A DNA stretch of 45,541 nucleotides from Weissella oryzae SG25 (lineage in GTDB: Bacteria; Bacillota; Bacilli; Lactobacillales; Lactobacillaceae). Positions 269 through 2,410 of this stretch are shown here, in pieces. The position numbers were made by a program, and so were the translations under genes. The notes under the pieces were generated by a model, which was not told the DNA's origin, made no database searches, and saw only the letters and a program-made list of their open reading frames with translations. Position 1 is the first letter of the stretch. Every line of letters starts with the position of its first letter. The stretch spans positions 1 to 45,541 of the forward strand of contig NZ_DF820498.1 in NCBI RefSeq assembly GCF_000691805.2. Direction: 5' to 3'.

Positions 269-2410
269 TTATAGAGTCCCGCGTAAGCCTAATTCGTCTA
301 CATTTTCCTTCATTGCATTGATGCAACCTTCAATCGCTGTGTTCAAATCCATCCCTAGTAACTCAAGAGCCTCGTTGATTGAATTGCGGTCGACACCACG
401 GGCAAATGAAGCTTGTCGGAATTTCTTATTAATTGACTTCACCTTAACGTCTAAGATGCTATTTGATGGTCGAATTTGCACGTCAGCATAAATCAAACCA
501 CTTAGTTCATCCATCGCATACAAGGTCTTTTCCATCAAATTACTTGGTTCAACATCGGTTTCGAAATGATAGGCATGGCTCTGAATTGCATGGATATAGG
601 CTGGGTCAACACCCAACTCAGTCAATATCTCAGTTGCTTTGAAGGTATGGTAACCCTTACCCCATTTTTGCCAATCAAGGTCATGCAACAAACCAGTTAC
701 ACCCCATAAATCTTCATCCGCACCATTTTGTCGTGCAAAGTAACGCATGATTGCTTCAACAATTTTAGAATGCTCTAACAAAGCTGGATCATCCACATAT
801 TGAGTCAAGATTGCCCAAGCTTCGTCCCGTGATAACTTTTTAGCAACTTTAGGATCATCTGTGGCTGCTTTAGTACTTTCAACTGGTTTAGCAGCTGCTT
901 TATTGCTATTCTTTGGTGCATTTTGCTTCATCGTTGGGAAAAGCAAGACATCGCGAATTGTATCTGTATCTGTCAAAAGCATTACTAAGCGGTCGATACC
1001 AATCCCTAGTCCACCAGTTGGCGCCATACCATATTCAAGTGCCTCAATGTAATCTTCATCAATACCTTCGGCTTCATCGTTACCAGCAGCCTTTTCTGCG
1101 GCCTGAGCCTCAAAACGTTGGCGTTGGTCAATTGGGTCATTTAATTCCGTGAAGGCATTTGCATATTCGCCCCCAACGATATACAACTCAAAACGGTCCG
1201 TGAAACGTGGGTCTTCGGCATTCTTTTTAGCTAAAGGTGATACTTCTACTGGGTAGCCATAAACAAAAGTTGGTTGCATTAAGGTCTCTTCGACAAACTC
1301 ATCAAAGAACTTAGCAATGATATGGCCGACTTCCCAATAGCTTTCGACTTTAACACCCTTTTCCTCAGCAATTTTTCTAGCTGCTTCGATGGTCATTGGT
1401 TGCCAAAAATCAACACCAGTCACTTCTTTGATTAAATCAAGCATGTGCTTACGGGCAAAAGGCTTAGCCAAATCAATCTCATGATTCTGATAAGAAACTT
1501 TCATCTCAGGCGTAACTGCACGGGCGGCTGCCTTAAAGATGTTTTCCGTTTCTTCCATTACATCTTTGAAATCAAAATAAGCTGCATATGATTCTAGTGT
1601 CGTAAACTCAGGATTATGCTTAGGGTCCATCCCCTCATTACGGAAAATTCGGCCAATTTCATAAACTCGCTCCATACCACCAACAATTAAGCGCTTTAAT
1701 GGTAATTCAGTCGCAATCCGCATATACATATCGACATCCAGACTATTATGGTGTGTTATGAATGGACGAGCAGTCGCTCCACCAGCGGAGGTCAACAAGA
1801 TTGGTGTTTCCACTTCAATAAAGCCTTCTCCATCCATGTAAGAACGAATTGCTGAGATAATCTTAGACCGCTTCATAAAGCGATCCATTGAATCTGGGTT
1901 AGCAATTAAATCAAGGTAACGTTGACGGTAACGTGTCTCCACGTCCGTCAAGCCATGGTACTTATCAGGTAAAGGACGTAAAGCCTTAGATAGGTGTGTA
2001 ATTTCATTAACATTAACCGAAAGCTCACCTGCTTTGGTCTTCATCACTGTTCCGGTGACACCTAAAATATCGCCTAAGTCAGACTTCTTTAACCATTCGT
2101 AGCTCTCATCACCAACAACTGACTTTTGTACAAAAAGTTGAATACGGCCAGAGCGATCCTTAAGATCAGCAAAAGTTAGCTTTCCTGAACGTCGCTTAGT
2201 CATCATCCGTCCTGCAATCGTTACTAGATTAGCTTCAGCTTCTAATTCTTCACTCGTCTTGTTATCAAAAAGGGTGTGAATTTCTGCTGCTGTATGTGAA
2301 CGCTCAAAGCGGTGTCCAAAGGGATCAATACCCGCATCTCGTAATTCCGTCATTTTTTCACGACGAATAAGCATCTGGTCATTTAATGACATCATTGCTT
2401 GATCAGCCAT
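269..2410 (-). CDS. lysS: Lysyl-tRNA synthetase fused to a C-terminal HD phosphohydrolase domain
   Basis: Residues 1 to about 495 are a complete class II LysRS. They hold an OB-fold anticodon-binding domain, then the catalytic core with motif 2 ([15 protein letters not shown]) and motif 3 ([12 protein letters not shown]), ending at LLFPTMK where ordinary LysRS ends. The ORF continues in frame through an Ala/Lys/Ser-rich linker (about 496-525) into a roughly 190-residue HD domain. The putative metal ligands there are H547, H576-D577, H588, H612 and D634. It resembles stand-alone 'HDIG' proteins of clostridia; that comparison is from memory. LysRS charges tRNA-Lys and also makes Ap4A. A nucleotide hydrolase role for the extension is inference. 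The ATG has a GAGG ribosome-binding site 8 nt upstream. It follows hslO by 96 bp with no clear terminator, so the two are probably cotranscribed. Confidence 0.95.

Follow-up and report, generated by a model that had tools for sequence, protein, structure and literature searches.

A lysyl-tRNA synthetase gene with a C-terminal HD domain

The window, as used here, is the whole 45,541-nucleotide stretch of Weissella oryzae SG25 DNA that was analysed (NZ_DF820498.1); it corresponds to contig C15 in a genome assembly of 2.13 Mb with 99.55% completeness. Close to its left end lies a 713-aa open reading frame (269..2410, minus strand), beginning with ATG and free of internal stops, whose product is a three-part protein consisting of a complete lysyl-tRNA synthetase (LysRS; residues 1 to 496), a variable linker (residues 497 to 526), and an HD domain (residues 527 to 713). 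The gene, its active-site codons, and the sequence at its 3' side are as follows:

923..2410, minus strand: LysRS part, residues 1-496 (NF001756, TIGR00499); no other LysRS found in the genome
833..922, minus strand: linker, residues 497-526, which evolves fast (43% identical to that of W. muntiaci, with a pN of 0.437)
272..832, minus strand: HD domain, residues 527-713, with a predicted HDIG-type metal-dependent hydrolase fold (PF01966, TIGR00277, AlphaFold2)
770..772, minus strand: codon of H547, the first HD ligand (invariant in 75/75 other tree rows)
680..685, minus strand: codons of H576-D577, the HD doublet (position checked; invariant in 75/75 other tree rows)
647..649, minus strand: codon of H588 (position checked; invariant in 75/75 other tree rows)
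575..577, minus strand: codon of H612 (position checked; invariant in 75/75 other tree rows)
509..511, minus strand: codon of D634 (position checked; invariant in 75/75 other tree rows)
269-271, minus strand: stop codon of the fused gene
225..257, minus strand: terminator-like hairpin, an 11-bp stem and a T run read by eye, directly 3' of the fused gene
3..176, minus strand: rRNA-operon leader in two stretches (154-176 and 3-91), matching DNA 3' of lysS in four unfused Weissella loci

Both curated cut-offs for a full-length class II LysS are exceeded by the synthetase part, with residues 10 to 496 scoring 730.9 bits against NF001756 (cut-off, 468) and the LysRS part scoring 696.8 bits against TIGR00499 (cut-off, 427.6). 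Similarly, the C-terminal part belongs to the HD superfamily and its HDIG group, matching PF01966 at residues 545 to 637 (34.6 bits; cut-off, 22) and TIGR00277 (33.3 bits; cut-off, 27.6). A first-pass annotation of this DNA, at 269-925 (the last 218 codons and the stop, residues 496 to 713), had described an uninterrupted frame encoding a full LysRS, a linker, and an HD domain, a description upheld by the ORF check and the family models; H547, H576-D577, H588, H612, and D634 were each found where it had placed them when checked residue by residue. Elsewhere in the genome there are three LysRS matches, all 28 to 31% identical, which we take to be the Asp/Asn synthetases, and no class I LysRS was found in the W. 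oryzae genome. With neither a second bacterial LysRS nor a class I enzyme, the fused protein must presumably supply lysine charging, being the sole LysRS found.

The fusion recurs in a second species and lies just upstream of a native rRNA leader

A whole-protein search gives LysRS matches in all 28 Weissella genomes and a full 713-residue match in two, W. oryzae and a genome that we take to be W. muntiaci 8H-2, a separate assembly in which the same fusion (locus L050) is 88% identical. The fusion is absent from the other 26 genomes. In 25 of these the LysRS could be read through, and all 25 end in FPTMR or FPTMK at residue 489 to 494, just before the linker start; in the remaining genome (G008, 66% complete) the LysRS was judged from pieces, which extend to residue 496 with no HD match there.

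The 268 bases 3' of the fused gene match the post-lysS DNA of four unfused loci used for comparison. The matches form two blocks, one of 23 bp at positions 154-176, which is identical, and one at 3-91, which is 75 to 77% identical over 95 columns. The HD segment, fused in frame where lysS natively ends, thus lies between that end and a native rRNA leader. Of 25 loci with an unfused lysS, 13 have a 16S start motif 374 to 937 bp 3' of the gene; among the remaining 12, the sequence mostly stops less than 650 bp after lysS, and two lack the motif over 1.5 kb.

At the other end of the contig there are a cut 5S rRNA (45447-45541) and a tRNA (45372-45443), together at window 45372-45541 on the minus strand, so that rRNA-operon sequence flanks the contig at both ends (5S/tRNA at one, the rRNA leader within 1-268 at the other). 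Many lysS contigs of the genus stop shortly after the gene, probably because rRNA-operon sequence borders lysS. In G008 (L031, L032), lysS and glyS are each broken into ∼66-codon pieces that lie on one strand in reversed order, a pattern resembling ∼200-base blocks reverse-complemented in place, and yqeK and rny each match in one piece; the block pattern is probably a data or assembly fault.

Selection on the HD domain

The three parts of the protein have diverged to different extents between W. oryzae and W. muntiaci. The LysRS part is 92.3% identical (pN, 0.055), the linker 43.3% (pN, 0.437), and the HD part 85.5% (pN, 0.094; pS, 0.775). With pS at 0.70 to 0.82 across the parts and thus near or at saturation, the pN/pS ratio is not relied upon. 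Among nearby genes of the same species pair, hslO has a pN of 0.121 and the last 400 codons of ftsH a pN of 0.038. From these substitution patterns the HD part is under purifying selection and constrained like an ordinary functional protein, with the linker drifting. GC content is 0.42 in the HD part and 0.42 in the LysRS part, so there is no compositional sign of a very recent arrival.

A gene whose stop lies only 268 bp short of a contig end, in a form limited to 2 of 28 genomes, might be a misassembly, or a fusion without function whose HD domain is decaying. However, the fusion is present in two separate assemblies in which the linker has diverged yet the HD domain is conserved, the HD part is under purifying selection, and the DNA 3' of the gene matches the leader between lysS and rRNA in unfused relatives, which makes the distal flank of the insert native as well. 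Artefact and dead-domain risks are largely excluded, and we consider this explanation extremely unlikely. The first-pass annotation had allowed for an assembly artefact, a concern removed by the repetition of the fusion in W. muntiaci in the survey of 28 genus genomes, and its view that the domain is not dead agrees with both the retention of the six ligands in 75 of 75 homologues and the purifying selection.

The HD active site and predicted structure

In a tree of 76 HD rows (one a duplicate), the six residues H547, H576, D577, H588, H612, and D634 are invariant in all 75 rows other than W. oryzae, as are D579, F669, A670, and R675. Twenty-five columns are at least 95% conserved in the 72 outgroup rows, of which W. 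oryzae keeps 22, W. muntiaci keeps 23, and the standalone copy of genome G044 keeps 24; the outgroup rows themselves deviate at no more than 5 of these columns, with a median of 0. By this count, the fused copies are slightly looser than typical family members. The order H...HD...H...H...D, present in the W. oryzae HD part, is given in a review (PMC8177086) as a six-residue motif diagnostic of a dinuclear site, for YqeK and for HD oxygenases. The proposal made in the first-pass annotation that the ligands point to a dinuclear site is therefore a fair one as far as the metal site goes, but the chemistry cannot be read from the motif.

An AlphaFold2 model of residues 517 to 713, built with 11 sequences, has a pLDDT of 92.4 and a pTM of 0.90. 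Searching PDB by sequence with the single protein gave three weak matches, none HD by name (best E, 0.02), and there was no match with the A1 profile at E ≤ 0.1 or with the HD model in Foldseek at E ≤ 0.001. In a second look, the VIA fold ranks place the GlyRS beta HD and PgpH as tied closest, with the GlyRS beta HD having the top Z. We note that the loop between D577 and H588 (window 647-682, minus strand), which adjoins a metal ligand, has Lys at position 585 in place of a family Pro and exceeds its W. muntiaci counterpart by one residue.

Relationship to YqeK and the Ap4A question

The first-pass annotation proposed, with reference to YqeK, that the HD domain may limit Ap4A or another nucleotide made or sensed at LysRS, and that the domain be compared with the YqeK family. 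That comparison places it outside the YqeK family model: the C-terminal 218-aa piece has no match to TIGR00488 (cut-off, 70.15 bits) at E ≤ 1, and only 1 of 11 HD family members has one (E, 0.079). The two have the H...HD...H...H...D order in common, and YqeK (COG1713, TIGR00488) is the nearest of three profiles compared with that of the HD domain, at 96.4% compared to 90.6% for RNase Y and 5.3% for GlyRS beta, although these values come from pairwise E-values and narrow alignments; aligned by eye, the YqeK ligands fall on those of the HD domain. They differ in the spacing of the ligands, which are separated by 29, 12, 24, and 22 residues in the fused HD domain (with a second gap of 11 in W. 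muntiaci) and by 29, 33, 26, and 18 in YqeK. They differ also in two residues of YqeK. The Lys that contacts ADP, three positions past the HD Asp and reportedly Lys62 in Streptococcus pyogenes YqeK, is replaced by W580, in a column that has Y in 57, F in 11, W in 6, and S in 1 of 75 family rows. Where an Arg would be expected, some three positions ahead of the first His, there is L544 (L in 62, H in 10, Q in 2, and V in 1 of the 75 rows); a passage of PMC8177086 describes this Arg as strictly conserved in HD phosphatases. On these sequence grounds we judge that the HD domain is not a YqeK family member.

Separate yqeK genes are found in 28 of 28 Weissella genomes, both fused ones included, and in 50 of the 53 chosen genomes having the HD family or the fusion. 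A role of the HD domain as a substitute for a lost YqeK was rejected, both fused genomes having retained yqeK. In one Weissella relative (G004, C1:1309764-1310275) the yqeK match is in two pieces, open frames of 125 and 113 aa, and is possibly a broken gene.

A one-chain enzyme of Ap4A synthesis and breakdown, in which the HD domain hydrolyses Ap4A from the attached LysRS, has several points in its favor: LysRS is listed among Ap4A producers in part of PMC10148737, YqeK is an HD enzyme of equal six-ligand order that cleaves Ap4A and is the best of the three profiles compared, and most mycoplasmas fuse YqeK to NadD. Nonetheless, the absence of a TIGR00488 match at E ≤ 1, ligand gaps unlike those of YqeK, the missing Arg and Lys, the separate yqeK in all 28 Weissella and in 50 of 53 chosen genomes, and the occurrence of the same six-ligand motif in HD oxygenases, which makes it not specific to Ap4A, all weigh against it, and we view this reading, a special case within the broader one favored below, as distinctly unlikely. 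What survives of the original proposal is a plausible link, through the profile ranking and the NadD-YqeK precedent, with Ap4A as one substrate candidate among several; the domain failed at TIGR00488 and the separate yqeK tells against Ap4A.

Distribution and origin of the HD family

When the HD domain alone was searched against 301 Lactobacillaceae genomes, 16 matched at E ≤ 0.001, two strongly (W. oryzae, 2e-132; G044, 2e-69) and 14 weakly (6e-5 to 8e-4); the second fused genome is absent from these matches and is taken to be outside the sample. The G044 copy is a standalone gene flanked by what we take by eye to be rnhB and dprA. At the phylum level, 320 of 398 genomes match at E ≤ 1e-10, a weaker band of which may include a second HD family; among the matches listed, 124 of 397 other phylum genomes match at E ≤ 1e-55 over nearly the whole HD domain. 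Fifteen of the listed genomes share the order or class of W. oryzae, and not one of them matches, which places the phylum matches in other classes. Most of the named records carrying the gene are clostridial and one is a Collinsella, and relatives are also present in Bacteroidota and Ignavibacteriota MAGs; the record names are 'HD domain-containing protein', 'HDIG domain-containing metalloprotein', and 'hydrolase'. Among the matches listed, 149 of 149 other phylum rows are standalone, with open frames of 165 to 310 aa, and thus include no other synthetase-sized fusion. The true family of the HD part, as judged by similarity, is thus a set of uncharacterised standalone proteins that other classes of the phylum commonly carry.

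The fused pair and the standalone G044 copy form one clade of the HD tree with support of 100/100. We infer an origin by transfer into Lactobacillaceae, probably horizontal, followed by fusion in one Weissella lineage. No close donor was found among plasmid records (nine matches, all below 60% identity, in records of 139 kb to 2.6 Mb), phage records (four, unannotated and from fecal samples), or viral contigs (two). PHROGs gave weak matches at best (best E, 0.0069) and PADLOC none, for which reasons a phage or defence reading was rejected.

Genomic context of standalone homologues

An NCBIfam scan of 11 HD family members at E ≤ 0.1 gives matches to models of longer chains, all below the models' cut-offs. 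These include PRK12703, a tRNA methyltransferase with an HD domain (10 of 11 members; best E, 3e-9), the DVU_1551 NTP transferase (7 of 11; 5e-8), the NadD-YqeK fusion PRK07152 (4 of 11; 0.002), TIGR00295 (9 of 11), and the RNase Y model (4 of 11); against the RNase Y model TIGR03319, the HD part and its family reach at most 17.6 bits (cut-off, 454.35). Our reading of the matched ranges and model names is that related HD domains sit on tRNA or nucleotide-transfer enzymes.

Gene neighbors were counted at the 58 of 71 loci in which the ORF picker found the HD gene, the other 13 being excluded from this count; for the tree, HD domains were recovered from every locus used there. The neighbors are variable, with none widely conserved across the 58 loci. 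Translation-related genes adjoin the HD gene at eight loci (8 of 115 adjacent slots), and comprise gltX at three, and an AlaX-like gene, YbaK, MnmA, TadA, and EF-P at one each, all eight by-eye picks having been confirmed; the remaining adjacent slots were judged by eye only, and the ORF picker also calls some spurious ORFs. No translation gene was seen by eye in the 102 slots three genes away. Because the gltX trio is one clade, there are at most six independent tRNA-linked cases. The tRNA and translation neighborhood is therefore suggestive, consisting of selected cases with no formal test.

In the gltX trio (L102, L109, and L151), which also form one clade of the HD tree, the HD gene is directly downstream of gltX on the same strand, with a gap of -49 to +5 bases as called. 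At L140 (4478-5662) it is directly upstream of the AlaX-like alanyl-tRNA editing gene, itself below its model cut-off, and at L145 (5510-6064) directly upstream of the YbaK Cys-tRNA(Pro) deacylase gene. Enzymes of the AlaX-like and YbaK kinds hydrolyse mischarged tRNA.

The HD domain could be a passenger, an ancestral function unrelated to aminoacylation for which fusion to lysS provides steady expression and a stable home. The fused HD domain looks unspecialised in that it retains 22 of the 25 nearly invariant family positions, the neighbors of most homologues vary, and a standalone Lactobacillaceae sister exists, all of which fit such a role; set against these are the 8 of 58 homologue loci that adjoin tRNA or translation genes and the matches, below cut-off, to HD parts in models of tRNA and nucleotidyl enzymes. 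We consider it rather unlikely, though it would still offer a clean example of a housekeeping gene capturing a domain.

A possible role for the HD domain at LysRS

The reading we tentatively favor, at somewhat short of an even chance, is that of an active dinuclear HD hydrolase acting on a nucleotide by-product or on tRNA at LysRS. The product would be one bifunctional protein, comprising the cell's only LysRS and an HD hydrolase on a flexible linker. Two metal ions, held by its six ligands, would activate a water molecule for attack on a phosphoanhydride or phosphodiester bond, and the tether would bring this hydrolysis to the site at which LysRS produces lysyl-AMP, ApnN side products, or charged tRNA, such that the HD domain could clear a nucleotide by-product or trim or repair a tRNA end. 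The E. coli CCA-adding enzyme, whose HD domain acts on 2',3'-cyclic phosphates, is another tRNA-linked HD protein. LysRS has also been reported to cap RNA in vitro, in a section of PMC10148737.

Three kinds of known systems bear comparison. First, the NadD-YqeK fusion of mycoplasmas is likewise an ATP-using adenylating enzyme bearing its own HD hydrolase, and, in an excerpt of PMC9426524, its HD part acts on wrong NadD products and 8-oxo-GTP; it differs in having NadD rather than LysRS as a partner, and the Weissella HD domain falls outside the YqeK model and shares its genomes with a separate yqeK. Second, the GlyRS beta subunit (PDB 7EIV, 7YSE) also has an HD fold within an aminoacyl-tRNA synthetase. 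In E. coli, however, it lies mid-chain and lacks the catalytic doublet, replaced by Ser393-Lys394, whereas the Weissella domain keeps His-Asp with all six ligands intact, is C-terminal, and is confined to two species. Third, RNase Y and PgpH are HDIG-type phosphodiesterases whose other domains are absent from LysRS-HD. Since the GlyRS beta HD binds the tRNA acceptor stem, according to part of PMC9908026, the Weissella domain might similarly grip that stem and aid the transfer step, with catalysis being secondary; we hold this to be very doubtful. Some other explanation for the HD domain is improbable to a slightly greater degree.

If the favored role in acting on LysRS by-products or tRNA is correct, it would reveal what a widespread, as yet uncharacterised family of hydrolases does, and would represent a bacterial synthetase policing its own side reactions. 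A bolder extension, which we think unlikely, takes LysRS-HD as a 'Rosetta stone', with the HD family of Clostridia and others being aminoacylation clean-up or tRNA quality-control hydrolases; an HD family previously unlinked to tRNA synthetases would then be, in Weissella, part of one. As far as our searches reach, the LysRS-HD architecture is new and of narrow distribution, both halves being of known kinds, and we found no paper on either the fusion or the HD family among open-licence PMC papers. An essential synthetase has gained a second, apparently catalytic domain that is retained under selection, and the two fused species, their unfused sisters, and the standalone sister enzyme provide a natural before-and-after series.

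Elsewhere in the window, a mostly unassigned 1,414-aa ORF with a GTG start (30839-35083, minus strand) has no NCBIfam match at E ≤ 1e-10, and its only Pfam matches at E ≤ 0.001 are bacterial surface Ig-like domains, the best stretch being residues 1196 to 1242.
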